The notes under the pieces are model-generated. The model worked only from the letters and a program-made list of their open reading frames with translations. It had not been told where the DNA came from and searched no databases. This document shows, one piece after another, positions 36,675 through 55,265 of a stretch of DNA of 64,000 bases (positions are counted from its first letter, which is position 1; the number at the start of each line of letters is the position of its first letter). Source of the stretch: Phaeobacter inhibens DSM 16374. Its GTDB lineage: Bacteria > Pseudomonadota > Alphaproteobacteria > Rhodobacterales > Rhodobacteraceae. The DNA is taken from assembly GCF_000473105.1 (NCBI RefSeq), contig NZ_KI421498.1, positions 1,984,001-2,048,000 on the forward strand. Reading direction: 5' to 3'. The translations under genes and the position numbers were made by a program.

Positions 36675-39600
36675 TTGGGGCAATTGAAGACATCTGGGAA
36701 AACCACGGATCGCACTCCGTTCGATGCCTCGCGGTACAGCGGGGATATCGCCATTGTGGGTATGTCGCTCTGCGTGCCGGGCGCTCAGTCCCCCGGCGTG
36801 TTCTGGCAGAATCTGCGCGACGGTGTGGAATCGATCCGCCCTGTCAGCGAAGACGACCTGCTGGCCGCAGGCGAAGACCCCGAGACACTGTCCGACCCCA
36901 ACTATGTTGCCGCCACCGCAGCGCTGGAGGGGTACGCCGAGTTTGACGCCGACTTCTTCGGCTTCAGCCCGAAAGAAGCCGCGATCCTCGATCCGCAGCA
37001 CCGCAAATTCCTGGAGGTGGCCTGGAGCGCAATGGAGGATGCCGGTCATCCCCCCGAGAGTCTTGACGGTCCGATCGGGGTCTATGCCGGCTGCGGCATG
37101 GGGAGTTACTTCTACTTCAACATCTGCTCCAACAAGCCGCTGGTCGATGATGTGGGTATGTTCCTGCTGCGCCATACTGGCAACGACAAGGATTTCCTGT
37201 CCACCCGCGTCAGCCATGTGTTCGATCTAAAAGGCCCGTCGGTGAACATTCAGACCGCCTGCTCAACCTCGCTGGTGGCAGTGCATTACGCCAGCAAGGC
37301 GCTGCGCGAGGGCGAGTGTGAGATGGCCCTTGCCGGAGGCGTCACGATTGAGCTGCCGCAGGGCCGGGGCTACCTGTTCAAAGAGAACGAGATCCTGTCG
37401 CCGGACGGCCACTGCCATGCATTTGACCACCGTGCGCAGGGGACCGTTTTTGGCTCCGGCGCGGGGGCGGTTGCATTGCGCCGTCTGGAGGATGCGCTGG
37501 CGGATGGCGATCACATCTGGGCCGTCATCAAGGGTTCGGCGATCAACAATGACGGCGCCGACAAGGCGGGCTATCTCGCCCCCTCGGTTGAAGGGCAGGC
37601 CAGCGCCGTGCGACAGGCGCTGCGCGCCGCCAAGACCCCGCCGGATACCATCGACTATGTCGAATGCCACGGCACCGGAACCTATCTGGGCGACCCGATT
37701 GAAGTCACTGCCCTGACCGAAGCCTACCGCGAGACCACGCCCGCGGTCGGCTATTGCCGCATCGGCTCGGTGAAGACCAATATCGGGCACCTTGATACTG
37801 CCGCCGGTGTTGCCGGGTTAATCAAGACAACGCTCGCACTGCACCACGGCCAGATCCCGCCCAGTCTGGGGTATGAGGCACCGAACCCGGCCATTGATTT
37901 TGAAACCTCGCCTTTTGTGGTCAACGACCATTTGCGCGACTGGACCTCTGCCAAAGGGCCCCGCCGCGCGGCGATCAATGCGCTCGGGGTTGGCGGCACC
38001 AACGCCCATGCGGTGCTGGAACAAGCCGCCCCCCGTCCCGCCTCAGATGAGAGCGATTTCCCGTTCCACGTGCTGTGCCTTTCCGGCCATTCGAAAGCAG
38101 CGCTCGATGCCAATGCCACCGCTCTTGCGGCGCATCTACGCGCCAATCCCGATCTGCCGCTGGCGGATGTCGCCTATACGCTGAAGGAAGGCCGCCGCGG
38201 CTTTGCCAAGCGTCGGACATTGGTCGCCGAAACCCCGGAGGAGGCGGCCACCCTGCTCGAGGCGGGCGATCCGAGGCGCGTGTTTGACCATACTTGCGCA
38301 GAAAGCACACCTGAGGTGGTCTTCATGTTCCCCGGCGGCGGCGCGCAATATGCGGGCATGGCGCGGGATCTTTATGAAACTGAACCGGTTTTTGCCGATT
38401 GGATGGACCGGGGATTGGATCACCTTGAGAGCCAGCTAGACTATGACATTCGCGCGCTCTGGCTGCCTGATCCGGGACAGGAGGGCGCCGCCAATGCGCG
38501 CCTGCAACAGCCATCTGTGCAACTGCCGCTGATCATGATCGTTGAATTCGCGCTGGCGCAACTGTGGCTCAGCTGGGGCGTACGCCCCGCCGCGCTGGTG
38601 GGTCACTCCATGGGGGAGAACACCGCAGCTTGTCTGGCCGGGGTGCTGTCGTTTGAGGATTGCATCGATCTGGTGCTGCTGCGTGGACGGTTGTTCGACA
38701 AGGTGCCTGCGGGCGGCATGCTGTCGATCTCGCTGCCGCTGGAGGAGGTGGAGGCCAGATTGCCACCGGAGCTGGACATTGCCAGCGTCAATGCCCCGCG
38801 CCTCACAGCCGTCTCCGGACCGCAGGAGGCACTGGATGCGCTGGCGGCGCAGCTGACGGCGGATGAGGTGGATCATCAACGCATCCAGATCGACATTGCC
38901 GCTCACAGCCGCATGCTGGAGGGTATCCTGGAAGAGTATCGCCAGTTCCTGCGCGGGTTGACCCTGACAGCACCCGGTCGCCCGATCCTGTCCAACCGCA
39001 GCGGCAGGATCTTGAGTGACGCCGAGGCCACCGACCCCGAATACTGGGTCGGTCAGCTGCGCAATACGGTGATGTTTTCTGCCTGCCTGGACACGCTCGC
39101 CGAGCAGCCGAACCGGCTCTATCTTGAGGTTGGCCCCGGCAAGGCCTTGTCCTCTCTGGCGCAGATGGCCCCGGCAATCAAACCCGGTCAGGTGCTCAGC
39201 TCGCTGCGCCATCCCGACCAGACGATGGCCGATGACGCCTATTTCTTTGGCGTGATCGGACGGCTCTGGGCCGCCGGACTGGAGGCAGATTGGGATCAGA
39301 TCTGGGGTGATGCCCGCCGCCAGCGTCTTCCGCTGCCAACTTATGCGTTTCAGCGCAGCCGCTATTTCATCGAACCCGCGGCCCCGACCACTGCGGAAAC
39401 CGCAATCAGCACGCCTCTGCGCCACGACGATCTGTCACAATGGGGATCGCGCCCCAGCTGGCGACCGGCGCTGGCCAGCTGCGATCTCGACGTCACGGCG
39501 GAATTGGATCAACAGCCTGAAACCTGGCTGCTGTTTGAGGGCGACACCGGACTTTGCGCAGATCTGGCGCCACGGCTGGAGCAGGCAGGCCACAGAGTGG

Positions 39601-42600
39601 TACGGGTGGCCCCCGGCGACACCTATGCACAGCTGAGCGAGAGCCGCTATATGCTGGCCCCCGAACAGGGGCGCGCGGGCTATGATGCGCTGCTTGCCGA
39701 TCTGGCGCTGGCGGATCTTCTGCCCAGTCGGATCGGCCATTTCTGGCTGGTCACTGAGGGCGAGAGCTTCCGTCCCGGCGCCTCCTTCTTTGATCGCAAT
39801 CTGGAGATGGGCTTTTATGCGCTGACCGCCTTGGGGCAGGCTCTGGCCCAGATCGATCTGCCGCAGCCTGTGCATATGACGGTTTTCACCACCGGGGCAG
39901 CACAGCTGCGCAACGAGCCGCTGCCCTACCCGGAAAAGGCAATGATTGCCGGCCCTGCGGGCGTACTGCCGCGCGAGATCCCCGGCCTGACCTGCGCCAC
40001 GGTGGATATCGAGCTACCAACCCGCCCCAATGGTCTGCGCCGCTGGCTGTCGGAGGACGCTCCGGTGCCGATTACCGACCGCCTGCTGGAGGAGGTGCTG
40101 GCGGACCCGGCAAACGACACGGCACTCTGGCGCGGCGACAAGCGTTATGCCTTGCGGTGGCGCCCCGTGGCGCTGCCAGACAGCGAGCAAGCACCATCGT
40201 CCAACCCTGCCTTCCGCGAAGGCGGCACCTATCTGATCACCGGCGGTTACGGTGGGATCGGGCGCACGATTGCGGCGGATCTGATGCTGAGCTACGGCGC
40301 CAATGTCGTGCTGGTCTCGCGCGGCGGGTTGCCACCGCGCGATAACTGGGAAAGCTATCTCAATCGTCACAGCCCGGCCAATACAACCGCGCAACGCATC
40401 CGCGCGGTGATGGCACTGGACGCGATCGGCAGGGGACGGGTGTTGCCGCTGGCCGCGGATGTCTGCAACAGTGAGCAAATGCGCGCCGCTGTTGCAACGG
40501 CTGAGGAGACCTTTGGCCCGATCACCGGCGTCATCCACGGCGCCGGGCAGATCAACGATGCGCCGGTTCTCGCCAAGACAGAAGACGATATCGCCCAGGT
40601 TCTCGCTCCAAAGGTCAGCGGCCTCAGGGTACTGGACTCCATTTTCGGCACGGGTCAGCTGGAGTTGATGGTGCTGTTTTCCTCCTCCTCGACGGTGACG
40701 CGCCCGATTGGTCAGGTGGATTATGTCGCGGCCAATGAATACCTCAACGCCTTTGCCAAACATTGCACGGCTCTCTCCTCACCAGATCAGAGAACACATG
40801 TGGTCGCTGTCGACTGGGGGGTCTGGGCGGACGTCGGGATGGCGGCGGATGCCCTCGGCTCACACCAGCCCGAGGCAGGCAGTGACCCAAGCCCCTGCGA
40901 TCAGCCGCTGTTGGACAGCCGTCAGTTTTCCCATGACGGCAGCTTGCTGTTTCACCGCCGATTGACCAGCGATCAGTGGGTTCTGGATGAGCATCGCACC
41001 AAGAATGGCACCGCGCTGGTCCCCGGTACTGGTTATATCGAATATGCCGCTGAAGCGCTGGCAGAGTTGGGGCATGACGCGCCTTTCGCGCTGCGCGATC
41101 TCTATTTCCTGCGGCCTCTGGTGGTCACTGGAGCACCTTGCGATATGACCGTCCGGTTGACCCCGGTGGAACGCGGCTATGACTTTGCGGTCTACAGCCG
41201 CACCGCGGAAGGCTACGCCCTTCATGTGCAGGCGCTACTGGAAACCGATATCAATGGGGGCACGCCTGCGCCGGTCGATATCGCCGAGCTGAGGCTCCGC
41301 ACGCCAGAGATATCGGTGGCCACCCCCGCAGAACGACTGAAAACACCGCAGGAAGCGCATCTGAAATTCGGTCCTCGCTGGCATGTTCTGGAAGAAACAC
41401 GCCACAGTGCTGCAGAAGGTCTTGCCCAGCTGAAACTGCCGCAGATTGCCGAAGAAGACGGCACACTGCTGCCCCCCGGGCTGTTGGATCTGGCCACCGG
41501 CTGGGCCATTGATCTGGCCCCAGCCTATCGGGGCACCGCGCTTTGGGTGCCGGTATCCTATGACAGCATCCAGATTTTTGCCCCGCTGCCCGTTGAGTTG
41601 CTGAGCCATATGCGGCTGGTCGACAGCACCGCAAGTAGCGCACGGTTTGACATCACGCTGGCGGCAGCTGATGGCACTGTTGTGGCAGAAATCCGTGGGT
41701 TTCAAATGCAGCATCTGCCCGGCGCGACCAATCTGGCCCCGGCAGAGGGCGCAGACGCCAGCGCTGAGGATCTGGGCCTGATCGCTCCCGGCAGCGCGCA
41801 GCCCTTGTCACCGGAGGAACGTCGCCTTCACCGCAATATCGCCCAAGGGATCCGCGCCGAGGACGGCCCCGAGGCTCTGCGCCGTGCGCTCGCCACCGGG
41901 CTGTCGCAGGTGGTGGTCTCTTCTCTGGCGCTGCCGGATCTGATTGCACAGGCCGATCAACCGCCGCCGCAGAATGCCGACACCAGCCAGAGCTTTGAGC
42001 GACCACAACTGGACACCGATTACCTTGCCCCGCGCAATTCGGTCGAGGAAGAGATCGCGGCTCAGTTCGCACGGCTCCTTGGAGTGGCGCAGGTTGGGGT
42101 CGAAGACAGTTTCTTTGACCTCGGAGGTCATTCCCTGATCGCGGTCCGGCTCTTTGCACAGATCAAGCGAAGCTTTGGCGTTGATCTGGCGATCTCCACC
42201 CTGTTTGAGGCCCCCTCGGTTGCCAAGCTGGCAGAGCTGGTGATTGCGCGCACCGGTGGCGGTCTCACCACCGAGGCTCCGATTGATGCCGCAGGCGACA
42301 CACCGACTGAGGCCCCCAGCTATACCCATCTGGTCCAGCTGCACCCCGGTGATGGCACCGGGCGGCGACCGTTCTTCCTGGTCGCTGGCATGTTTGGCAA
42401 TGTGCTGAATCTGCGCCATCTGGCATTGATGGTTGGGAAGGACCGCCCCGTTTACGGGCTGCAGGCCCGCGGCCTGATCGGCGAGGATGCGCCACATGAC
42501 CGTTTGGACGAGGCCGCACGCGATTATCTTGTCGAAATCCGCAGCGTCCAGCCCGACGGCCCCTATCTGCTGGGCGGCTTCTCCGGCGGCGGGCTGACCG

Positions 42601-43172
42601 CCTATGAGATTGCCCAGCAATTGCAGGCTGAGGGTAAAGAGACTGCCGCGCTGATCCTTTTGGACACGCCGCTGCCGCTGCGCCCGGAGCTGTCGCGCCG
42701 CGACAAGGCGCTGATCAAATGGGCCGAACTGCGCAGCAAGGGGATCAGCTACCTGGGCGAATGGATCGGCAATCGTATCGCCTGGGAGATCGAGAAACGT
42801 CGCTATGCTGCCAGCGGCGACAGCGCAGCACCGGTGTTCAACAACCGCAAGGTCGAACTGGCCTTCCGCGCCGCCCTGCCCGCTTATGACCTGCAGCCTT
42901 GGTCCGGGCCACTGACGCTGTTCCGCCCGCCGCTGGACCGGCACTGGCAGGTCTCTGCCGGGAATTGGGTCAGCCGCGAGCGGGAATATGTCTTTGATGA
43001 CAACGACTGGACCCGCTGGGCCCCCGCAGTTGAGGTGGTCGAAGTCCCCGGCGATCACGACAGTATGGTTCTGGTGCCCAATGTCAGTGTATTGGCAGGA
43101 GAGGTGAAGGCGCGGCTGGATGCCGCCGACGCCGCAGCGCTGGCCCGCAGCACAGCAGAGGCCGCAGAATGA
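36675..43172 (+). CDS. type I polyketide synthase, KS-AT-KR-DH-ACP-TE
   Basis: A 2165-residue single-module PKS. KS residues ~22-450 (active C196 in TACSTSLVAV; HGTGTYLGDPIE; KTNIGHLD). AT ~535-850 (S645 in GHSMGE; IAAHS around H744 suggests malonyl rather than methylmalonyl). KR ~930-1400, including the structural half (TYLITGGYGGIGRT near 1185; Y1350 in YVAANEYLN). DH ~1420-1690 (H1440 in DEHRTKNGTALVPG; LLDLATGW). ACP ~1780-1850 (S1820 in GGHSL). Thioesterase ~1880-2150 (S1970 in GFSGGG; GDHDSM). The KR precedes the DH, which is unusual. The start is TTG at 36675 or 36684; AAGGA precedes both. It ends in an ATGA overlap with a glycosyltransferase. Confidence 0.95.
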   Translation: MGQLKTSGKTTDRTPFDASRYSGDIAIVGMSLCVPGAQSPGVFWQNLRDGVESIRPVSEDDLLAAGEDPETLSDPNYVAATAALEGYAEFDADFFGFSPKEAAILDPQHRKFLEVAWSAMEDAGHPPESLDGPIGVYAGCGMGSYFYFNICSNKPLVDDVGMFLLRHTGNDKDFLSTRVSHVFDLKGPSVNIQTACSTSLVAVHYASKALREGECEMALAGGVTIELPQGRGYLFKENEILSPDGHCHAFDHRAQGTVFGSGAGAVALRRLEDALADGDHIWAVIKGSAINNDGADKAGYLAPSVEGQASAVRQALRAAKTPPDTIDYVECHGTGTYLGDPIEVTALTEAYRETTPAVGYCRIGSVKTNIGHLDTAAGVAGLIKTTLALHHGQIPPSLGYEAPNPAIDFETSPFVVNDHLRDWTSAKGPRRAAINALGVGGTNAHAVLEQAAPRPASDESDFPFHVLCLSGHSKAALDANATALAAHLRANPDLPLADVAYTLKEGRRGFAKRRTLVAETPEEAATLLEAGDPRRVFDHTCAESTPEVVFMFPGGGAQYAGMARDLYETEPVFADWMDRGLDHLESQLDYDIRALWLPDPGQEGAANARLQQPSVQLPLIMIVEFALAQLWLSWGVRPAALVGHSMGENTAACLAGVLSFEDCIDLVLLRGRLFDKVPAGGMLSISLPLEEVEARLPPELDIASVNAPRLTAVSGPQEALDALAAQLTADEVDHQRIQIDIAAHSRMLEGILEEYRQFLRGLTLTAPGRPILSNRSGRILSDAEATDPEYWVGQLRNTVMFSACLDTLAEQPNRLYLEVGPGKALSSLAQMAPAIKPGQVLSSLRHPDQTMADDAYFFGVIGRLWAAGLEADWDQIWGDARRQRLPLPTYAFQRSRYFIEPAAPTTAETAISTPLRHDDLSQWGSRPSWRPALASCDLDVTAELDQQPETWLLFEGDTGLCADLAPRLEQAGHRVVRVAPGDTYAQLSESRYMLAPEQGRAGYDALLADLALADLLPSRIGHFWLVTEGESFRPGASFFDRNLEMGFYALTALGQALAQIDLPQPVHMTVFTTGAAQLRNEPLPYPEKAMIAGPAGVLPREIPGLTCATVDIELPTRPNGLRRWLSEDAPVPITDRLLEEVLADPANDTALWRGDKRYALRWRPVALPDSEQAPSSNPAFREGGTYLITGGYGGIGRTIAADLMLSYGANVVLVSRGGLPPRDNWESYLNRHSPANTTAQRIRAVMALDAIGRGRVLPLAADVCNSEQMRAAVATAEETFGPITGVIHGAGQINDAPVLAKTEDDIAQVLAPKVSGLRVLDSIFGTGQLELMVLFSSSSTVTRPIGQVDYVAANEYLNAFAKHCTALSSPDQRTHVVAVDWGVWADVGMAADALGSHQPEAGSDPSPCDQPLLDSRQFSHDGSLLFHRRLTSDQWVLDEHRTKNGTALVPGTGYIEYAAEALAELGHDAPFALRDLYFLRPLVVTGAPCDMTVRLTPVERGYDFAVYSRTAEGYALHVQALLETDINGGTPAPVDIAELRLRTPEISVATPAERLKTPQEAHLKFGPRWHVLEETRHSAAEGLAQLKLPQIAEEDGTLLPPGLLDLATGWAIDLAPAYRGTALWVPVSYDSIQIFAPLPVELLSHMRLVDSTASSARFDITLAAADGTVVAEIRGFQMQHLPGATNLAPAEGADASAEDLGLIAPGSAQPLSPEERRLHRNIAQGIRAEDGPEALRRALATGLSQVVVSSLALPDLIAQADQPPPQNADTSQSFERPQLDTDYLAPRNSVEEEIAAQFARLLGVAQVGVEDSFFDLGGHSLIAVRLFAQIKRSFGVDLAISTLFEAPSVAKLAELVIARTGGGLTTEAPIDAAGDTPTEAPSYTHLVQLHPGDGTGRRPFFLVAGMFGNVLNLRHLALMVGKDRPVYGLQARGLIGEDAPHDRLDEAARDYLVEIRSVQPDGPYLLGGFSGGGLTAYEIAQQLQAEGKETAALILLDTPLPLRPELSRRDKALIKWAELRSKGISYLGEWIGNRIAWEIEKRRYAASGDSAAPVFNNRKVELAFRAALPAYDLQPWSGPLTLFRPPLDRHWQVSAGNWVSREREYVFDDNDWTRWAPAVEVVEVPGDHDSMVLVPNVSVLAGEVKARLDAADAAALARSTAEAAE

Positions 43173-44239
43173 TCAAAGCCGCCGCTCCCTCCGCCGCGCC
43201 GCCTTTGGACACCTCCTCGGGTGGTGCAGAAGCGCGCATTCTGACCATCATCCTGAATTACAAGACGCCTCAGATGACGCTGGACTGCGCCGCCGCCGCG
43301 CTGGAGCAGATGGAAGAGCTGCCCGGTGAAGTGGTGATCATCGACAACGGCTCCGCCGATGGCTCTTATGAGCAGTTGCTCACGGCGGTGCAGGCGCGCG
43401 GCTGGCTGGACAGCGGCCGCCTGCGCCTGATCGCCAGCGACCGCAACGGCGGGTTTGGGGCGGGGATGAACATCGGCTTTCGCCTCGGTCTCGCCGATGG
43501 CAGCGCGCCTGAGTTCTATTATCTGCTGAACTCGGATGCCTTTGTGCAGCCAGGCGCGATCCGCGCATTGCGGGATTTCTTGCTGGCCACGCCAACCGCC
43601 GGGCTTGTTGGCTCCTACGTGCGGGGCACTGATGGGACGCCTCATTGCACCGCCTTTCGCTTTCCCACCATCGCGGGCGAGTTTGAATCCTCGGTGCGAA
43701 CCGGCATTGTGACGCGCCTGCTGAAAGATGCCGTGGTGCCGATGGAGATCCCCACCGAGCCGACACAGCTGGATTGGACCGCTGGCGCCAGCCTGATGAT
43801 CCGTCGCGAGGTGATTGATGCGGTTGGAGGTTTTGACGAGACATTCTTTCTCTACTTTGAGGAAACCGAGCTGTGCCATCGCGCTGCCCGCGCCGGGTGG
43901 AGCACGCATTATCTGCCCACAAGCGAGGTCGCCCATGTGGGATCCGCCTCAACCGGGATGAAGGATTGGCAGCGCACACCGCAATACTGGTTCGACAGCC
44001 GGTTGCACTACTTTCTCAGCACCCATGGGCGCGCTTACACGGTCGGGGCCACATTAGCGCTGATTAGCGGCAGCCTGCTCTATGGGCTGCGCCGGCTGGT
44101 GTCGGACAAACCGGCCTCGGACCCGCCGTATTTTCTGCGGGATCTGATCGTTCATCATAGCCGCGCGATCTTTCGCCGCCGCAAAACCCAGCCTATGGAA
44201 ACCCGCCAGACCCCGTCTCAACCGGAGGAGCAGAAATGA
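43169..44239 (+). CDS. glycosyltransferase family 2 (rhamnosyltransferase-like)
   Basis: A 356-residue GT2. ILTIILNYKTPQMTLDCAA, IDNGSADGS, SDRNGGFGAGMNIGFR and the metal motif LLNSDAF identify the WbbL/RfbN-like branch. WTAGASLMIRREVIDAVGGFDETFFLYFEE is the acceptor/base region. A hydrophobic patch near residue 300 could attach it to the membrane. It sits between the PKS and the NRPS and overlaps both by 4 nt, which ties sugar transfer to the assembly-line operon. Confidence 0.9.
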   Translation: MIKAAAPSAAPPLDTSSGGAEARILTIILNYKTPQMTLDCAAAALEQMEELPGEVVIIDNGSADGSYEQLLTAVQARGWLDSGRLRLIASDRNGGFGAGMNIGFRLGLADGSAPEFYYLLNSDAFVQPGAIRALRDFLLATPTAGLVGSYVRGTDGTPHCTAFRFPTIAGEFESSVRTGIVTRLLKDAVVPMEIPTEPTQLDWTAGASLMIRREVIDAVGGFDETFFLYFEETELCHRAARAGWSTHYLPTSEVAHVGSASTGMKDWQRTPQYWFDSRLHYFLSTHGRAYTVGATLALISGSLLYGLRRLVSDKPASDPPYFLRDLIVHHSRAIFRRRKTQPMETRQTPSQPEEQK

Positions 44240-47200
44240 CCCCATTCTCCTGTATCGTTCTTGGCAATGAATCACTGCTTGTCGCCTGCGCGGACACATT
44301 GCTGGCCCGCGGCCACAGCATCGCCGCCGTGGTAACCAAAGACGCCGAAATCCGCCAGTGGGCCGCTGACAAGGGCCTGAGCGTGCTGGAGGATGCACGC
44401 GACTTTGGTGGATCCGTGGACTGGCTGCTGTCCATCGCCAACCTTGAGATCATCCCCGACAGCGTGCTGGCCCGCGCAGCGAATGGCGGCGTCAATTTTC
44501 ACGACGGTCCGTTGCCGCGCTATGCCGGCCTCAACACGCCGAACTGGGCCCTGATCGAAGGGGCCACGGAGTACGGCATCACCTGGCACATGATCGAGGG
44601 CGGGGTGGATGAGGGCGACATCCTCGCCCAGCGCCTGTTTGCGATTGCCGGGGATGAGACGGCCTATAGCCTCAACGCTAAATGCTACGCTGCCGCGATG
44701 GACAGCTTCGGCGATGTGCTGGGCCAGCTGGAAACCGGCACACTGGCGCGGCAGGCGCAGGATTTCAGCACCCGCAAGCTCTATACACGGGCCAACCGAC
44801 CCGAAGCGGGCGCCCTGCTGGATCTGGCGCAGCCTGCAACCGATTTGCACCGGTTGATACGTGCGCTTGATTTCAACGGTTACTGGAACCCGCTCTGCGC
44901 CGCCAAGGTGCAGTTGAGTGCGAACAGTGGCGTGCCGATAGCGCTGATCGGCACCGCAGAGATCGCAGAAGGATCCGGAGTGCCGGGCACCGTGCTGAGC
45001 GTCGACGCCAAGACGGTGACACTGGCCTGCGGCGACGGTGCGCTGCGGCTTGGCGGATTGCACCACAGCGACGGGCGCCCGATCCGCGCCACCGATCATG
45101 TCCAAACGGGGGATGTTCTGCCGTCCCTTGATGCAGAAGACCGCCGCGATCTGACCCGACAACTGACAGCAACCCAGGCGAGCGAGAGCAAATGGCGCAA
45201 GGCGCTGGCCGCCCTGCCCGCTGTGGATCTGCCGTTGGCAGGTCCAGCAATTGATGCCCCCGCGGACATTACGCATCACACACTCTCCCATAATGTGGCC
45301 CTGACAGAGATTGATGTGCTAAGCGTCGCCCTTGCCCTCACGCTGTGCAGTTCCGGAGCGGAGGCTGCCGGGATCGCGCTCAGCACCGATGCGCTGCAGG
45401 AGGCTGCCATCGCCGGGATGATCTGTGACTGGGTGCCGGTGCAGGCCCGCCGCGATGCACCCTTTGACGATTTGCGATCCCGGTTGACTGCGGAGTTGGA
45501 CAGCACCCGCAACAGCGGTGGATTTGCGGCCGATCTGATCGCCCGCGCGCCGGAGCTGCGACAGACCGGGGGCAGCGGCCTCTGCCCGGATATCGGCTGC
45601 ATGCTGGGGCGCGCGCAACATATAGACGGATGTGTGGCGACCCTTTCCCTGTCAGAGCGCGCGCTGGCCCTGCATATCGATACAGCCCGACTGGATGCGC
45701 AAGCGACCAAGCTGTTGGTGGGCCGGGTCGAAATGCTGATCGACGCGCTGGCCTCGGCGTCCGGTGGCACCATGGCCGATCTACCCGTCCTGCCAGAGGC
45801 CGAACGGCGGCAGATGTTGCTGGACTGGAACAGCACCGCCCGTTCCGACACCGGGCAAAGCACCATACCGGCGGAGTTTGCGGCCCAGGTTGCACAAACC
45901 CCGGAGGCCACGGCGCTGGTTTATGAGGGCGAGAGCCTGACCTATGCCGAACTCTCCGCGCAGGTCGATGATCTGGCTGCCATCCTGCGTGACCGCGGCG
46001 TGGCACCGGGCAGCCATGTCGGCATCTATCTGGGACGCGGACCTGATCTGGTGATTGCCGCCCTCGCCACGATGGCGGCGGGCGGGGCCTATGTGCCGCT
46101 GGATCCGGCCTATCCGGCGGATCGCATCGCACATTTCATCACCGATAGCGCCGCAAGCGTGATCCTGACCGACAGCGGACACCGGGACCAGCTGCCCGGC
46201 ACATTGTCAGCCGATATCCTATGCCTTGACGCCCTGCCCGAAGTGCCCGCCGCGGCTGAAACGGCTGCCACAGCGCCCGGCCCACAGGATCTGGCCTATC
46301 TGATCTACACGTCCGGCTCCACCGGCACGCCCAAAGGCGTGATGGTGCGCCATGGCAATGTTGCGAATTTCTTTGCCGCCATGGATGACCGCATCCCACA
46401 TCAGCCGGGCGATTGCTGGCTGGCGGTGACGAGCCTGTCATTCGACATCTCTGTGCTGGAACTGTTCTGGACCCTGTCGCGCGGCTTCAAACTGGTGCTG
46501 TCCAGTGATGAGGCGCGGTTGCAACTCTCCAATGGGCCGATTGCCACCAGCGACCGGGGCATGGACTTCAACCTGTTTTACTGGGGCAATGACGACGGCC
46601 CCGGTCCGCGCAAATATGAACTGCTGCTGGAGGGTGCGAAATTCGCCGATCAGCACGGGTTCAACGCCGTCTGGACACCGGAGCGGCATTTCCACGCTTT
46701 TGGCGGCCCCTATCCGAACCCGGCGGTGACCGGCGCGGCGGTGGCTGCGGTCACGAAAAATATCGGTGTGCGTGCGGGCTCCTGCGTGGCGCCGCTGCAT
46801 CACCCGGCCCGCATTGCCGAGGAATGGTCAGTGATCGACAACCTGACCGACGGCCGCGCCGGTATTGGTTTTGCCTCTGGCTGGCAGCCGGATGATTTCA
46901 TCCTGCGCCCCGAAAACACCCCCCCCGCCAACAAACCTGCGCTGTTTGAGGCGATCGAGACCGTGCGCAAGCTCTGGCGCGGCGAAGAGGTTGCCTTCCC
47001 GCGCAAGGATGGGGGCGACCACGCGGTGCTGACCCAGCCGCGCCCGGTGTCAAAGGAGCTACCCGTCTGGGTCACCACTGCCGGCAACCCAGAAACCTGG
47101 CGCGAGGCGGGCAGTATCGGGGCCAATGTGCTGACCCATCTGCTGGGCCAGAGCATCGAAGAGGTCGCGGGCAAGATCACCATCTATCACGACGCCCTGC

Positions 47201-48870
47201 GTGCCGCCGGTCACGATCCGCGCGATCACAAGGTCACGTTGATGCTGCACAGCTATCTGGCCGACACCCGCGAAAACGCGCGCGCCACCGCACGTGAACC
47301 GATGAAGGATTACCTGCGCGCAGCGGCTGGTCTGATCAAGCAATACGCCTGGGCCTTTCCTGCGTTCAAGAAACCTGAAGGGGTGAAAAACCCGTTTGAG
47401 ATGGACCTCGGCATGCTGTCGGCAGAAGAGCTGGAGGCCATTCTGGACTTCGCCTTTGAGCGGTATTTTGAAGACTCCGGCCTGTTTGGCACCATTGCCG
47501 ATGCCCTACAACGGGTGGAGCAGCTCAAGCAGATCGGCGTTGATGAGATTGCCTGTCTGATCGACTATGGCATCGCGCCGGAGATCGTACTGGAGGGGCT
47601 AAAGCCCCTTGCGGAGGTGCTGCGCCTTGCCAACGCCCCGCAAGAACTGGCGGCGGAGGATGTCTCGCTTGCGGCGCAGATCCTGCGCCATGGCGTCACC
47701 CATATGCAATGCACCCCGTCGATGGCGCGGATGATCACCGCGGATGCCGATGCGCGCCCGGTGCTGGGGCGGCTGTCGCATCTGCTGATCGGAGGGGAGG
47801 CGCTGCCGGGCGACCTAGTGGCCAGCCTCCGCGCGACAACCCGTGCCGAAATCCACAATATGTATGGGCCGACAGAGACCACGATCTGGTCAACCATGCA
47901 GACCCTATCCGGCGTGCCCGCCGGGACCGCGCAAATCGGGGCGCCGATTGCCAATACCACTGTTTATGTCGTCACGGACGATCTGACTCCTCAGCCAGTT
48001 GGTGTGCCCGGCGAATTGCTGATCGGCGGCGCCGGTGTAACCGCCGGTTACTGGCAGCGCCCCGAGCTGACGGCGGAGCGTTTCATCCCTGATCCCTTTG
48101 CCGATGCGGGGACGCATGTGCCCTCAACCCACCTATACCGTACCGGGGATCTGGTGCGCTGGCGTGGTGACGGTCAGCTGGAATTCCTTGGCCGCAGCGA
48201 TCATCAGGTAAAAATCCGCGGCCAGCGGATCGAACTGGGTGAAATCGAGGCCGCGCTGGCAGCGCTGGACGGAATCACTGGGGCTGTTGTCGTCGCCCGC
48301 GAAACCGCAGGTGACACCCGGCTGATCGCCTATGTAACCGGGCCTGTGGCACCGGATCAGGCGGTGCTGAAGACCGCGCTCACGCAACAACTGGCTGCAG
48401 TCATGGTGCCGAGCCATATCGAACATCTCGCTGCCTTCCCGCTGACCCCAAACAAGAAGATCGACCGCAAGGCCCTGCCGGATCCCAAGCCGGTACAGAT
48501 TTCCGTACCCACCTCCGACGCGCCGCTCAGCGCCGGGGCCCAGAGCAAGATTGCCGAAATCTGGAGTGACATCCTTGGCATCAGTGGTATTGGGGCTGAG
48601 GATAATTTCTTCACCCTCGGTGGCCATTCCCTGCTGGCGGTACAGGCCCACCGCGATATTCGCGGCGCGCTTGATGTACCAAAGCTGTCGATTACCGATA
48701 TTTTCCGCTTCCCGACGCTGTCAGGATTGGCCGGGCATATCGACGCGCTGACAGGGGCCCCTGCGACGGAGGACGCGACAGTAGCCCCGGCGGTTGATCC
48801 GGCCGCGAAATCCGACATGATGTCCAAGCGCCGCGCAATGCGGGCCAACCGAAAGGCACGCAGCGGATGA
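44236..48870 (+). CDS. NRPS: formyltransferase / half C domain / A domain with inserted luciferase-like monooxygenase / PCP
   Basis: A 1544-residue protein. Residues 1-~300 are a formyltransferase with its C-terminal domain; the triad N87-x-H89 and D125 has the same spacing as in methionyl-tRNA formyltransferase. Residues ~330-520 match only the C-terminal lobe of a condensation domain, with no HHxxxDG. The A domain runs ~530-1430 (A3 YTSGSTGTPKG near 690; A4 FDISVLELF at 736; A5 NMYGPTE at 1208; A10 NKKIDRK near 1403). It is split after A4 by a ~350-residue MupA/Atu3671-type FMN luciferase-like monooxygenase (~776-1125). The specificity residues read D-I-L-Q-L-G-M-I-W-K, one change from the glycine code. 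The PCP serine is S1465; a basic tail follows. No TE. The layout recalls the MtaG/MelG-type A(MOx) modules. Confidence 0.93.
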   Translation: MTPFSCIVLGNESLLVACADTLLARGHSIAAVVTKDAEIRQWAADKGLSVLEDARDFGGSVDWLLSIANLEIIPDSVLARAANGGVNFHDGPLPRYAGLNTPNWALIEGATEYGITWHMIEGGVDEGDILAQRLFAIAGDETAYSLNAKCYAAAMDSFGDVLGQLETGTLARQAQDFSTRKLYTRANRPEAGALLDLAQPATDLHRLIRALDFNGYWNPLCAAKVQLSANSGVPIALIGTAEIAEGSGVPGTVLSVDAKTVTLACGDGALRLGGLHHSDGRPIRATDHVQTGDVLPSLDAEDRRDLTRQLTATQASESKWRKALAALPAVDLPLAGPAIDAPADITHHTLSHNVALTEIDVLSVALALTLCSSGAEAAGIALSTDALQEAAIAGMICDWVPVQARRDAPFDDLRSRLTAELDSTRNSGGFAADLIARAPELRQTGGSGLCPDIGCMLGRAQHIDGCVATLSLSERALALHIDTARLDAQATKLLVGRVEMLIDALASASGGTMADLPVLPEAERRQMLLDWNSTARSDTGQSTIPAEFAAQVAQTPEATALVYEGESLTYAELSAQVDDLAAILRDRGVAPGSHVGIYLGRGPDLVIAALATMAAGGAYVPLDPAYPADRIAHFITDSAASVILTDSGHRDQLPGTLSADILCLDALPEVPAAAETAATAPGPQDLAYLIYTSGSTGTPKGVMVRHGNVANFFAAMDDRIPHQPGDCWLAVTSLSFDISVLELFWTLSRGFKLVLSSDEARLQLSNGPIATSDRGMDFNLFYWGNDDGPGPRKYELLLEGAKFADQHGFNAVWTPERHFHAFGGPYPNPAVTGAAVAAVTKNIGVRAGSCVAPLHHPARIAEEWSVIDNLTDGRAGIGFASGWQPDDFILRPENTPPANKPALFEAIETVRKLWRGEEVAFPRKDGGDHAVLTQPRPVSKELPVWVTTAGNPETWREAGSIGANVLTHLLGQSIEEVAGKITIYHDALRAAGHDPRDHKVTLMLHSYLADTRENARATAREPMKDYLRAAAGLIKQYAWAFPAFKKPEGVKNPFEMDLGMLSAEELEAILDFAFERYFEDSGLFGTIADALQRVEQLKQIGVDEIACLIDYGIAPEIVLEGLKPLAEVLRLANAPQELAAEDVSLAAQILRHGVTHMQCTPSMARMITADADARPVLGRLSHLLIGGEALPGDLVASLRATTRAEIHNMYGPTETTIWSTMQTLSGVPAGTAQIGAPIANTTVYVVTDDLTPQPVGVPGELLIGGAGVTAGYWQRPELTAERFIPDPFADAGTHVPSTHLYRTGDLVRWRGDGQLEFLGRSDHQVKIRGQRIELGEIEAALAALDGITGAVVVARETAGDTRLIAYVTGPVAPDQAVLKTALTQQLAAVMVPSHIEHLAAFPLTPNKKIDRKALPDPKPVQISVPTSDAPLSAGAQSKIAEIWSDILGISGIGAEDNFFTLGGHSLLAVQAHRDIRGALDVPKLSITDIFRFPTLSGLAGHIDALTGAPATEDATVAPAVDPAAKSDMMSKRRAMRANRKARSG

Positions 48871-49580
48871 CCCTGGTTGAGCCATCCTTGCGCAGCGTCC
48901 GGCACCGGGAGCTAATCCGTCCGCTGTTTGATGGCAGCGTTGCAGTCGAGGTCTGTGACCCGCAGGCCGATCCACCTCCGCCCTTCCCTGAGGAGGCCAC
49001 CTGCCTGTCACCAAACGCAGTGGAAAAACGGCGGCGCGAGTTCGCAGCGGGCCGCGCCGCTGCGCATCAGGCGATGGCAACGCTGGGCCTGACACCAAGC
49101 GCGATTCCCGTCAGCCCCAAACGCGCGCCGATCTGGCCGTCTGGGCTGGTCGGGTCGATCAGCCATTGTCGCAGCACCGCCGTTGCCGTCGTCGCCCTGC
49201 CGCAGCAAATGCGGGGGCTTGGCGTTGATGTCGAGGAGGACACGCCACTCGCCGATGATCTGATCCCGCAGATCTGCCGCCCGGCGGAGCGTCTTTGGCT
49301 GGCACAGCAGAACAATCCTGGCCAGTTGGCCAAAGTGATATTCTCCGCCAAGGAAGCCGCGTATAAATGCCAGTATCGCCTGAGCGAGCGGTTTTTCGGC
49401 TTTGACGGGATGGAACTGGAGATGAATGTGGCAGACGACACCGATCAGATCAGCGGGCAGTTTTCGGCGCGGTTTACGGCTGATCAGCCGCCCTTCCTGA
49501 CGGGGGATAGGATTGAGGGAGGATTTGTCATTGGGGAGGGGCTGATCGCGACCGCCGCACAGCTGCCACAGGTGCGATGA
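48867..49580 (+). CDS. 4'-phosphopantetheinyl transferase (EntD/Sfp type)
   Basis: A 237-residue PPTase of the EntD-like group. Motifs: KRRREFAAGRAAAHQA, GSISHCRSTAVAVV, GVDVEE (metal-binding Asp/Glu) and FSAKEAAYKCQY. It loads phosphopantetheine on carrier-protein serines, here presumably the PKS ACP and the NRPS PCP. It overlaps the NRPS and the following gene by ATGA junctions, so carrier activation is built into the operon. Confidence 0.93.
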   Translation: MTLVEPSLRSVRHRELIRPLFDGSVAVEVCDPQADPPPPFPEEATCLSPNAVEKRRREFAAGRAAAHQAMATLGLTPSAIPVSPKRAPIWPSGLVGSISHCRSTAVAVVALPQQMRGLGVDVEEDTPLADDLIPQICRPAERLWLAQQNNPGQLAKVIFSAKEAAYKCQYRLSERFFGFDGMELEMNVADDTDQISGQFSARFTADQPPFLTGDRIEGGFVIGEGLIATAAQLPQVR

Positions 49581-50479
49581 TCGGACGGCGCGGTTTTCTT
49601 GCACTCCTGTCTCTGCTACCGATCGGCGCGCAGGCGACACCCTTTGCGCTGCCACAGCTAAGCCCCCCGGCAGGGCCGATGCAGGTGTTTCACCTCGGCC
49701 ACTCACTGGTGGGTCCGGATATGCCACATATGGTGCAACAGCTGGCGCCGGAGGGGCATCGTTATAACAGCCAGCTTGGCTCCGGCACGCCCCTGCAGGA
49801 TCACTGGGAGCCGGATCTGGATATCCTGCATTTCGATCAGGTGAACACGCCTCCGGTCTGGCGCGACGCGCGCGAGGCGGTTGGATCGGGCGATTATGAC
49901 GCCGTCGTCCTGACAGAGATGGTCGAGCTACGCGATGCGTTGCGTTATTTCAAAGGCGCGCGGTATTTTCGTCGCTGGGCGGATCTGGCCCGCGATGGCG
50001 CGCCGGAAACGCGGATCTATCTTTATGAGACCTGGCACCCGCTGGACACCGCTGATGGCTGGCTGTCGCGGATCGACAACGATCTGGATCAGCTGTGGCT
50101 TGGCGGGCTGGCCGGGTCTGACAGCCGCCGCAACCCGAAGCGCCCTGCCTATCTGATCCCTGCGGGACAGGTGATGGCGGCGGTTGTGCGCGCTGCTGAG
50201 GCCGGACAAATCGACGGGTTGACCCGCCGCGAAGACCTCTTTGCCCGCACCGATGAGGGCGCGCTGGATCAGATCCATATCAACGATCTGGGCGCCTATA
50301 TCGTGGCGCTTACCCATGTCAGCACATTGTATCATCGCTCCCCGGTTGGCTTGCCCCATCAACTGCAACGGCCCGATGGCACTCCGGCTGACGCCTTTAG
50401 CGCTGAGGGCGCGCGGCAGGTGCAGGATATCGTCTGGCAGGTGGTCACCAGCCACCCCCGCACTGGTGTGTCCCCATGA
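49577..50479 (+). CDS. secreted SGNH-hydrolase-like protein with Tat-type signal
   Basis: 300 residues. The N-terminus GRRGFLALLSLLPIGAQA is a short twin-arginine-like signal (RR at 4-5) with likely cleavage after AQA. The mature protein looks like an SGNH/GDSL hydrolase: S43 in HLGHSLVGPD, and D231-x-x-H234 in DQIHINDLG as block V. It is probably an esterase or acyltransferase acting outside the cytoplasm, for example on acylated glycan. It is paralogous to the first ~270 residues of the next gene (shared GHSL, ETWH, PAGQ/KAGQ, IHxNDLG and SPVGLPHQL). Confidence 0.75.
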   Translation: MIGRRGFLALLSLLPIGAQATPFALPQLSPPAGPMQVFHLGHSLVGPDMPHMVQQLAPEGHRYNSQLGSGTPLQDHWEPDLDILHFDQVNTPPVWRDAREAVGSGDYDAVVLTEMVELRDALRYFKGARYFRRWADLARDGAPETRIYLYETWHPLDTADGWLSRIDNDLDQLWLGGLAGSDSRRNPKRPAYLIPAGQVMAAVVRAAEAGQIDGLTRREDLFARTDEGALDQIHINDLGAYIVALTHVSTLYHRSPVGLPHQLQRPDGTPADAFSAEGARQVQDIVWQVVTSHPRTGVSP

Positions 50480-53046
50480 CGCTGGCGGATCTGGTCGCCA
50501 GTGTGGTCATGGTCGGGCACTCCCTGTTCGGCCCCGACAATCCGGTGATGCTAGAGCAGCTGCTGGCGCAGCAACCTGCCCTTACCTCCGGGCAGACCGG
50601 GGACACCATCACAGTCGAGGCGCAAATCATCAATGGCGCTCCGCTCAGCTATAATTGGGCCCATGCTGATCAGGCCGAGGGGATCAACGCCCGCACCCGG
50701 TTAACGGACGGCATCGATGTGCTGATCGTGACCGAAGCGATCCCACTGGCCAACCATCTGAAATGGAGCGACACCGAGGGGGCGCTGGCAGAGTTCTACA
50801 CGCTTGCCTATGGTGCCAATCCCGAGGTGGAGGTCTATCTGCAGGAGACCTGGCACAGTCTGAGCAGCGGCACCGGAGCTGAGGTGCCGTTCGACGCCGG
50901 CGCAGCGATACCATGGCGTGACCGTTTGTCAGCGGATCTGCCCCGCTGGCAGAACGTTGTCGATACGGTCAACCGCAAAACCGGCGGCGATATCAAACTG
51001 CTGAAGGCGGGACAGGCGATGGCCAGGCTGGATGACGCCATTCAGGCAGGAACCGTGCCGGGCCTGAGCCGGATCGGAGAGGTCTTCGCCGACGACATTC
51101 ACCCCAATGATCTGGGGTTCTATTTCCTCTCTGCCCTGCAATATGCGGTGTTGACTGGCCAGTCGCCAGTTGGTCTGCCGCATCAGCTGCGTTCGGCGTG
51201 GGGTGGTCGCTACGAGGCGCCCGCGCCTGCACTGGCGCGACGGCTGCAGGAAATCGCCTGGGATGCGGCATGGGACCGGGTTCAACGGGCATCGCTGCCC
51301 TCAGATCCACCGCCCCTGCCCGCGGATCCGGTTCTGCCCGCCTTGAACCGGCCTGTGCAGGCCAGTCAGACCATTGCATCTGACGCAGCCACGGTGAGGA
51401 CAGACCCCGCTCTGATCGACGTGCCCAGGCAGCCGATTGGTATGAACCTTGCCTCTATCGCCGATTGGAGCCCGCAGGCCCCCTTCCTTGATCACTTCAA
51501 GACCGCGCGCCCTTGGATTGGGCATCTCGCAGGTCAATGGGGGGGCGCGGATTACTCTGATCTGGCGGCAGCGGGATATCTGGATCGGGACGGCTGGCCC
51601 ACTGCCATCCCGCCGGAACTGGGCTCAGTCGGAACCTTGATCCTCACGGATCTGCCGGAAGAGGCCAGCAGCCTCACAGGGCGGTATGTGCTGCAGTTTG
51701 AAGGCGACGGGATTGTCGAGGTCACGGGCCGGGCAAGAAACATCCGCTACGGCAAAAGCGAAATCCGATTTGACTATGCGCCAGGGCCCGGCGCGGTTGA
51801 AATCCGCATTCAGCGCAGTGACCGGCAAGGTGTCGGCGACTACATTCGTAACATCACTGTGGTGATGGAAAGACACCTGCCCGACTGGCAGGCCGGGGCC
51901 GTGTTCAACCCGGATTGGATCGCCCGGATGCGCGGGTTTGCTGCGCTGCGTTTCATGGACTGGATGGCCACCAACGACAGCACTCAGGTGGGATGGGAGG
52001 ATCGCCCGCGAGTGCAGGACTACAGCTGGACCGCGAAAGGCGCCCCGGCGGAGGTGCTGGTGGACCTGGCCAATCGCCTGCAGGCCGATCCGTGGTTCAC
52101 GCTGCCGCATATGGCCGACGATGTCTATATCCGCAACTATGCCCGACTGGTCCGCGACCAGCTGGATCCGGGACTGACCGCCTATGTGGAATACTCCAAC
52201 GAGGTCTGGAACTGGCAGTTCGAACAGGCGGTCTGGGCCGATGATCAGGCGCGCGCGCGCTGGGGCGGGCAGGATCTGTGGATGCAGTTCTACGGGGGCC
52301 GCGCCGCCGAGGTTGCGATGATCTGGACCGAGGTATTCGGCGACGCGGCAGAGGACCGTCTGGTGCGTGTCGTCTCTACCCAGACCGGTTGGTTGGGGCT
52401 TGAAGAGCAAATACTGGCCGCTCCCCTGTGGGTGGCCGAAGACCCGACGCGGCGCCCACCCGCGCGCCTTTTTGATGCCTATGCGGTGACTGGTTACTTT
52501 GGTGGCATTCTCGGTCTGCCCGACCGCGCGCCCACCCTGCGCGCCTGGATCGCACAAAGCCGGGAACAAGCGGCGGCGGCAGCTGAGGCCAAGGGTCTGC
52601 ACGGGGCTGCAGCTGCGGAGTTTGTGGAGGCTCACCAATATGATGCCGCCAGCGCCCTGGCTGCCGCAGAGTTGCGCGACGGGCTTGTCTCCGGCAGTTC
52701 CGAGGATACTGTCAGCGATCTTGTGGGGCGGGTCCTGCCCTATCATGCCAAGGTCGCCGAGGCGCATGGGCTTGACCTGATCATGTATGAGGGCGGCAGC
52801 CATGTGGTGGGTCTGGGCGCGATGGTGGATGATGAAATGCTGACCGGGTTCTTCAGCCATTTCAACTACACCGAGGAGATGGGCGCGCTGTACCGCAGTC
52901 TTCTGGCAGGCTGGCCGGACTTGGGCGGCAGCCTGTTCACCGCCTATTCGGATGTCTCATCCCCCGGCAAATGGGGAAGCTGGGGCAGCCTGCGCTATGT
53001 GAGCGATGACAACCCGCGCTGGCGCGCGCTGGAGGCCGCAAAATGA
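50476..53046 (+). CDS. SGNH-like domain fused to a clan GH-A-like glycosidase domain
   Basis: 856 residues. Residues ~1-265 repeat the SGNH-like domain of the preceding gene (S16 in MVGHSLFGPD; D206-DI-H209). A proline-rich linker at ~275-310 follows. Residues ~310-856 resemble an (alpha/beta)8 glycoside hydrolase: N575-E576 in YVEYSNEVWNW as acid/base and E772 in IMYEGGSHVVG as nucleophile would fit clan GH-A. A beta-sandwich-like insert occupies ~390-460. I see no signal peptide at the ATG at 50476, although the partner gene has one. Substrate unknown; tailoring of the locus polysaccharide is inferred. Confidence 0.75.
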   Translation: MTLADLVASVVMVGHSLFGPDNPVMLEQLLAQQPALTSGQTGDTITVEAQIINGAPLSYNWAHADQAEGINARTRLTDGIDVLIVTEAIPLANHLKWSDTEGALAEFYTLAYGANPEVEVYLQETWHSLSSGTGAEVPFDAGAAIPWRDRLSADLPRWQNVVDTVNRKTGGDIKLLKAGQAMARLDDAIQAGTVPGLSRIGEVFADDIHPNDLGFYFLSALQYAVLTGQSPVGLPHQLRSAWGGRYEAPAPALARRLQEIAWDAAWDRVQRASLPSDPPPLPADPVLPALNRPVQASQTIASDAATVRTDPALIDVPRQPIGMNLASIADWSPQAPFLDHFKTARPWIGHLAGQWGGADYSDLAAAGYLDRDGWPTAIPPELGSVGTLILTDLPEEASSLTGRYVLQFEGDGIVEVTGRARNIRYGKSEIRFDYAPGPGAVEIRIQRSDRQGVGDYIRNITVVMERHLPDWQAGAVFNPDWIARMRGFAALRFMDWMATNDSTQVGWEDRPRVQDYSWTAKGAPAEVLVDLANRLQADPWFTLPHMADDVYIRNYARLVRDQLDPGLTAYVEYSNEVWNWQFEQAVWADDQARARWGGQDLWMQFYGGRAAEVAMIWTEVFGDAAEDRLVRVVSTQTGWLGLEEQILAAPLWVAEDPTRRPPARLFDAYAVTGYFGGILGLPDRAPTLRAWIAQSREQAAAAAEAKGLHGAAAAEFVEAHQYDAASALAAAELRDGLVSGSSEDTVSDLVGRVLPYHAKVAEAHGLDLIMYEGGSHVVGLGAMVDDEMLTGFFSHFNYTEEMGALYRSLLAGWPDLGGSLFTAYSDVSSPGKWGSWGSLRYVSDDNPRWRALEAAK

Positions 53047-53885
53047 CACTGCTTTTGAGCGTGCTGATACCGGCCCACAATGAGGCAGGCTATATCGGGG
53101 CCTGCCTATCGGCGCTATTTGCAAGCGATCCGCTACCAGCCGGTGCAACGGGAGAGGTGCTGGTGATCGCCAATGGCTGCGCCGACACCACCGTCGCAGA
53201 GGCCCGTGCCGTAACTGCGCCGCAGGGGTGGACCTGTAGAGTGATCGACCGGGCCGAGGGTGGAAAGATCGGCGCACTTGCAGATGGCGAGGCGCGGGCC
53301 ACGGGATCTGTTCTGGTCTATCTTGATGCGGATGTGATCGTATCCCCCCCTTTGCTGGCGCAGATCTGCGCCGCGTTGAAGGGGGATCGGCCACGCTATG
53401 CCAGCGGCGCCCCACAGTTGTCTCCTGCCCGCAGTCAGGTCAGCCGTCTATATGGGCGGTTCTGGGCCAAGCTGCCCTTTGTTCGCGAAGGGGTGCCGGG
53501 GTTCGGCCTCTTTGCGATGAACCGCGCCGGGCGGGCGCGCTGGGAGCAATGGCCGGATATAATCGCTGACGATATCTTTGCCCGGCTTCGCTTTGATCCG
53601 GCAGAGCGGATCCGGGTGCAGGCCAGCTATCAATGGCCGCTGATCGAGGGGTTTCGCAATCTGGTACGGGTGCGCCGCCGCCAGAATGCCGGGGTAGCGG
53701 AGATTGCAGAACGGTTTCCCGCTCTGCTGACCAACGAGGACGTTCACCGACCAGGCCTGGCTGTAATCCTGCGGCTGGCGCTGCGTGATCCGGCGGGGTT
53801 TATGACCTATTCTGCCGTGGCGCTGGCTGTGAAATCACCGCTGTTTCGCACCCGAAATGAGGCGCGCTGGACCCGTGGGCGATAG
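53043..53885 (+). CDS. glycosyltransferase family 2 protein
   Basis: A 280-residue GT2: LLSVLIPAHNEAGYIGACLSAL, VIANGCADTTVAEAR, GGKIGALADGEARA and the DxD motif VYLDADVIV. IIADDIFARLRF is the catalytic acid region. The last gene of the overlapping operon; its ATG overlaps the preceding stop. Donor and acceptor unknown. Confidence 0.88.
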   Translation: MTLLLSVLIPAHNEAGYIGACLSALFASDPLPAGATGEVLVIANGCADTTVAEARAVTAPQGWTCRVIDRAEGGKIGALADGEARATGSVLVYLDADVIVSPPLLAQICAALKGDRPRYASGAPQLSPARSQVSRLYGRFWAKLPFVREGVPGFGLFAMNRAGRARWEQWPDIIADDIFARLRFDPAERIRVQASYQWPLIEGFRNLVRVRRRQNAGVAEIAERFPALLTNEDVHRPGLAVILRLALRDPAGFMTYSAVALAVKSPLFRTRNEARWTRGR

Positions 53886-55121: not shown

Positions 55122-55265
55122 GAGGACGACGGCCCATTTTATGCAAGAGTTATCGTAGGGTATCGTCAGTTGCGGCGCTTGCCCAGCATTGCCGCGAAGG
55201 TGCCGTGGAATTGACGCCTTTGAGGATCAGTGTCGCAAGTGTATCGCAAAAATTCGAGGATATTG

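Follow-up and report, generated by a model that had tools for sequence, protein, structure and literature searches.

The window analysed here is a 64,000-nucleotide stretch of the Phaeobacter inhibens DSM 16374 genome (contig NZ_KI421498.1, positions 1,984,001 to 2,048,000), and coordinates below count from its first letter. An open reading frame at 44236..48870 (+) encodes a protein of 1544 aa in which a formyltransferase (FT), the remnant of a condensation (C) domain, an adenylation (A) domain interrupted by a luciferase-like monooxygenase (LLM) and a peptidyl carrier protein (PCP) follow one another, an order abbreviated FT-A[LLM]-PCP. The reading frame, the FT start and the end lacking a thioesterase (TE) given in a preliminary description of this DNA are all borne out by Pfam: there is no TE in the protein, which ends about 40 residues past the PCP. 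In the same scan the AMP-binding match is split into two stretches and Bac_luciferase lies at residues 792-1103. The features are as follows.

44236..48870, + strand: non-ribosomal peptide synthetase (NRPS) loading module, FT, C-lobe remnant, A[LLM], PCP (Pfam, NCBIfam, about 44 syntenic Rhodobacteraceae orthologues)
44236..45165, + strand: FT domain, residues 1-310 (Pfam PF00551, Formyl_trans_N, 61-153; PF02911, Formyl_trans_C, 193-288)
45166..45840, + strand: C-domain remnant, C-terminal lobe only, residues 311-535 (profile of 16 orthologues; motif scan)
45841..46560, + strand: first part of the A domain, residues 536-775, with A4 (FDISVLELF) at 46441-46467 (Pfam AMP-binding, motifs)
46567..47619, + strand: inserted MupA/Atu3671-family LLM dependent on flavin mononucleotide (FMN), residues 778-1128 (TIGR04020; PuwE 6KET)
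47626..48477, + strand: second part of the A domain, residues 1131-1414, with A5 (NMYGPTE) at 47857-47877 (code DILQLGMIWK; best solved match LgrA)
48547..48741, + strand: PCP, residues 1438-1502, LGGHSLLA (PF00550, PP-binding)

That a MupA/Atu3671-family domain separates A4 from A5, as had been described, holds: A4 starts at residue 736 and A5 at residue 1208, with the insert at 778-1128 between them, and the spacing is similar in all inserted relatives examined (motif scan). The NCBIfam model TIGR04020 matches the insert with E 1.3e-141 and 471.7 bits against a cut-off of 244.45, over model positions 1-340 of 341, and by this curated cut-off the predicted domain is a member of the family. 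Among solved structures it is closest to the PuwE monooxygenase (6KET, E 2.6e-102), and the second A half is closest to LgrA. Residues 531-1430 were modelled with AlphaFold2 from an alignment of 27 relatives (mean predicted local distance difference test score, pLDDT, 84); the model matches Txo1 as a single A core spanning the insert (Z 49, root-mean-square deviation 1.9 A, 404 residues), while the modelled insert compares with PuwE 6KET at 45% identity and a TM-score of 0.91 by target. Structure prediction had been proposed as a check in the preliminary description, and its outcome is a continuous A fold around a PuwE-like insert; as modelled, the A fold stays intact with the insert looped out. 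Residues of the insert that typify the family, ERHF and GW among them, do not vary across 27 sequences, and the monooxygenase is the most conserved domain among the Rhodobacteraceae orthologues (80-93% identity, against 58-81% for the A parts, 48-70% for the FT and 31-46% for the C remnant).

The ten-position code of the A domain is DILQLGMIWK, and nearly all relatives read DILQxGM(I/V)WK. An initial assignment of this code as glycine-like stands, and the match is closer than the one-residue difference from a glycine code given there, since DILQLGMIWK is identical to the code reported for four monooxygenase (MOX)-bearing Gly A domains in a survey (PMC12283262). The evidence supports an A domain specific for glycine, an insert that is intact and a relationship to the MOX-bearing glycine modules.

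At the N-terminal side, the FT catalytic triad (N87, H89, D125) is kept in every relative aligned. The 225 residues between FT and A domain (311-535) have no Pfam match, PF00668 included, but a profile built from 16 orthologues aligns with C domains over their C-terminal lobe (Txo2 255-470, E 5e-10; Txo1 252-467). In this protein and in all FT-type relatives read, the N-lobe that bears HHxxxDG is lacking, the sole exception being a stray occurrence of the motif in L115 at another spacing; the C-type L092, L114 and L117 do have the motif (motif scan). We infer descent from a C-A[MOX]-PCP module whose C domain was truncated at the front and which gained an FT; with the C-domain N-lobe lost, no upstream chain could be condensed. 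Two unrelated origins of the FT-type LLMs were considered, and a single clade is compatible with the data and not rejected (approximately unbiased p-value, p-AU, 0.62), a value that falls short of proving one clade. The relative L088 (G963) has the order C-A[LLM]-PCP with a full C domain in which SHAILDS replaces HHxxxDG, and no FT. It has the same kind of polyketide synthase (PKS) partner as the FT-type loci and may be a step on the way to this type.

That partner is encoded upstream in P. inhibens:

36675..43172, + strand: PKS of 2165 aa with ketosynthase (KS), acyltransferase (AT), ketoreductase (KR), dehydratase (DH), acyl carrier protein (ACP) and TE, in the order KS-AT-KR-DH-ACP-TE (Pfam; catalytic motifs present)

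It is the sole AT-bearing PKS of the genome, the other AT match being FabD-sized, and the one full C domain of the genome is located on another contig. A search of the genome collection for relatives of the NRPS returned 51 loci, about 44 of them in Rhodobacteraceae, where gene order is shared over the entire cluster. Of 296 Rhodobacteraceae genomes, a set with nearly one per genus, 107 carry a TIGR04020 match, and the matching frame is mostly about 1500 aa long; some eight of those genomes have short frames only, two of which are whole stand-alone proteins. Beyond this family, Rhodothermia, Acidimicrobiia and other alphaproteobacteria also have FT-type proteins, and such proteins lie on plasmids in Aminobacter, Rhizobium, Shinella, Paracoccus, Methylobacterium and Aliiroseovarius. 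A KS is found within 10 kb of the LLM in all 26 FT-type loci compared, co-directional or divergent and in three gene orders, and the PKS adjoins the LLM module in every FT-type locus with enough flank (Alphaproteobacteria, Rhodothermia, Acidimicrobiia, Deinococcus). Divergence of KS and LLM is correlated across the 26 loci (Mantel r 0.91, with none of 2000 permutations as high). The NRPS and the PKS are thus paired both physically and in evolution. In L089, L103 and L116 the PKS continues into C-A(-PCP), so that the line would begin with the FT module. The C-type L114 and L092 have the same insert and a similar code but no such PKS alongside.

Two plasmid loci differ in their make-up. On Deinococcus plasmid CP029777 (L113 11092-23077) the FT is a separate gene, and behind the PKS comes a C domain with HHxxxDG in place of the TE. 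On a Streptomyces plasmid (L114 9793-15581) an MtaG-like protein, A[LLM]-PCP-TE preceded by a complete C domain, is directly followed by a flavin reductase gene, with LysW/LysX amino-group-carrier genes beside it.

FT-A[LLM]-PCP with one reducing PKS module forms a unit that recurs, is mobile and is apparently undescribed. We found no description of it in the literature searched, which is weak evidence of novelty given that many subscription papers fell outside that search.

The remaining genes around the pair are listed here.

34954..36417, + strand: O-antigen ligase/Wzy-like polymerase (PF04932 below cut-off; conserved synteny)
43169..44239, + strand: GT2 glycosyltransferase between PKS and NRPS (PF00535; 4-base overlap on each side)
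48867..49580, + strand: 4'-phosphopantetheinyl transferase (PF17837, PF01648)
49577..50479, + strand: SGNH-like protein, no Pfam match (GHS...DxIHxND motifs)
50476..53046, + strand: SGNH-like (DUF4886-like fold) protein with a GH51-like TIM barrel, 856 aa, no Pfam match (AlphaFold2, VIA-align)
53043..53885, + strand: GT2 glycosyltransferase, final gene of the coupled operon (PF00535)
55230..56630, + strand: Wzx-type polysaccharide flippase (PF13440)

Overlaps of 4 bases link the PKS, GT2, NRPS, phosphopantetheinyl transferase, two SGNH-like genes and last GT2 (36675 to 53885), which points to one coupled operon, surrounded by the Wzy-like protein, the flippase and several glycosyltransferases. 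The phosphopantetheinyl transferase (48867-49580) would prime the carrier domains. The SGNH-like protein at 49577-50479 begins with a signal-like sequence, and its gene adjoins 50476-53046, whose product is kept across Rhodobacteraceae clusters. In the model of the latter the SGNH part matches 4i8i (Z 20.6) and the barrel GH51 arabinofuranosidases (Z 22-23, VIA-align), and its product is possibly an exopolysaccharide-editing enzyme. This operon, the PKS partner and the C-lobe remnant at 311-535 all came to light after the preliminary description.

The reading we favour, and hold to be probable, is that the NRPS is a loading module on which N-formyl-glycyl-PCP is made, alpha-hydroxylated and handed to the PKS. 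Going by its code and motifs, the A domain would activate glycine and load the PCP; the N-terminal FT, with its intact N-H-D triad and its place in the domain order, would formylate the amine to N-formyl-glycyl-S-PCP, in the manner of LgrA and of the loaders for oxazolomycin and phthoxazolin. FT-A(Gly)-PCP loaders initiate oxazole polyketides (PMC5764310). The FMN-dependent insert, by its family and position, would then hydroxylate the alpha-carbon of the carrier-bound glycyl group, with FMNH2 supplied by a reductase encoded elsewhere. Two precedents bear on this step: MupA alpha-hydroxylates an ACP-bound acyl chain and requires an FMN reductase (PMC10953402), and a flavin monooxygenase in a Gly module explains the alpha-hydroxyglycine of solanimycin B (PMC10204066). 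Oxidation of carrier-bound glycine is our best inference, N-formyl-glycyl-PCP being a more likely substrate than glycyl-PCP. The oxidised unit would pass to the KS of the same-operon PKS for one malonyl extension, ketoreduction and dehydration, after which the PKS TE would release or transfer the product. The carbinolamide may persist as an N-formyl-alpha-hydroxyglycyl group or break into formamide and a glyoxylyl thioester starter; as the module has no TE and a KS follows, either group would be extended, and the best reading of its fate is the start of a polyketide, not the end of a peptide.

Several points weigh against this scheme. The MupA substrate is a beta-keto acyl chain (PMC10953402), and the relative seen here could act later in the pathway; the flavin monooxygenase of SolF is located between a8 and a9, not a4 and a5; and the operon itself has no flavin reductase, the four of the genome lying elsewhere. 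An N-acyl carbinolamide thioester is labile, and its acceptance by the KS is presumed and unproven. The chemistry assigned to the family here is drawn from homology, fold and gene context. Elsewhere in the genome (G000:C6:367943-369842, outside the window), a stand-alone monooxygenase with weak likeness to TIGR04020 directly follows a flavin reductase gene.

The fate of the carbinolamide separates the favoured scheme from a doubtful but possible variant, in which it collapses, formamide leaves and glyoxylyl-S-PCP is the true starter, KR and DH then giving a 4-oxo-crotonyl unit. The two-carbon fragment that MtaG-type modules discard would here become the product, and formylation would serve only to give the smallest N-acyl glycine acceptable to monooxygenases of this lineage. 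For myxothiazol and melithiazol, a flavin monooxygenase in the Gly module leads to amide release: the carbinolamide is cleaved, and exactly such a glyoxyl thioester is left on the carrier and hydrolysed by the TE (PMC10204066). In the P. inhibens protein the TE is absent and a KS comes next, the FT stands where a C domain supplying the N-acyl group would be, and the insertion site and Gly code are those of MOX modules. Yet collapse is not automatic, as solanimycin B retains its alpha-hydroxyglycine (PMC10204066), and the immediate loss of the formyl group appears wasteful.

We regard it as unlikely that the monooxygenase acts in trans on a beta-keto or extended intermediate bound to the PKS, in the manner of MupA, the NRPS only loading N-formyl-glycine. 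The substrate requirement of MupA, the best characterised family member, for a beta-keto acyl-ACP and the co-evolution of NRPS and PKS would suit such a role, but the insert sits inside a glycine A domain, as in glycine-oxidising modules, and L114 and L092 carry it without the PKS. Two further readings are both highly improbable. An MtaG-like terminator freeing the chain as a primary amide would share the insert site and A code; against it, the protein has no catalytic C-domain lobe and no TE, has an FT at its N-terminus and lies upstream of the KS in co-linear relatives. As the module has no catalytic C domain to deliver a chain and is succeeded by a KS rather than a TE, the MtaG outcome cannot be the main one, and a simple terminator of this type was rejected. 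The MtaG/MelG-type module of the preliminary description consequently survives as a likeness of mechanism up to hydroxylation, but not in its amide formation. Nor does a structural or inactive passenger fit an insert that is the most conserved domain and keeps ERHF and GW throughout. Finally, an oxazole pathway of the oxazolomycin type, in which a cyclodehydratase forms the oxazole, was rejected; no such domain (OzmP/PtxD/CongE) occurs in the operon or elsewhere among the ten genes scanned (31928-56630).

Several known systems come close to the loading module. In MtaG and MelG (myxothiazol, melithiazol) the flavin monooxygenase likewise interrupts a glycine A domain between a4 and a5 (PMC10204066), and DILQLGMIWK is the code given for MOX-bearing Gly domains (PMC12283262). 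MtaG and MelG are C-A[MOX]-PCP-TE modules ending a chain as an amide, whereas here an FT and a C-lobe remnant stand in front, the TE is lacking and a PKS comes after. The P. inhibens protein would act as they do until hydroxylation, yet it does not belong to their type, as it lacks a catalytic C domain and a TE and precedes a KS. SolF module 4 (solanimycin) likewise has a flavin monooxygenase in a glycine A domain, and alpha-hydroxyglycine is kept in its product, but besides its a8-a9 insertion site it is an elongation module without FT. LgrA (gramicidin) and OzmO/PtxE (oxazolomycin, phthoxazolin) start their assembly lines with FT-A-PCP, as here, and PtxE is a predicted glycine loader for a PKS, but none of the three has a monooxygenase. 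By its intact triad and domain order the protein is a predicted formylating initiation module; that it feeds a downstream elongation module is seen in gene context only, from the same-operon PKS and all FT-type loci compared. MupA (mupirocin) belongs to the same TIGR04020 family and performs alpha-hydroxylation on a carrier protein, but as a separate protein acting on a polyketide, and the PuwE domain (6KET), also of this family, is housed in a hybrid PKS/NRPS.

The neighbourhood suggests where the product goes. Flippases, polymerases, sugar transferases or glycosyltransferases stand beside the unit in Rhodobacteraceae, Aminobacter, Paracoccus, Deinococcus, Shinella, Ruegeria and some Acidimicrobiia, and the product probably decorates, or arises together with, the exopolysaccharide of the surrounding genes. 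As a neighbourhood argument this has a counterweight in the FT-type loci L087, L089, L098, L099, L103 and L116, near which there are no obvious polysaccharide genes; the association, with the pair mostly in exopolysaccharide loci, is common and not universal. We only tentatively raise, as a rather unlikely whole, a two-protein line in several phyla by which glycine is formylated and oxidised on its carrier to a glyoxylyl thioester (or N-formyl-alpha-hydroxyglycyl) starter, extended once and put on exopolysaccharide as a small reactive acyl group.

If the chemistry is right, formylation and glycine oxidation would be combined on one carrier, giving a new kind of PKS starter. On the same condition, many roseobacters might attach a group of polyketide origin to their exopolysaccharide, and machinery of secondary metabolism may serve them as a polysaccharide-decorating system.

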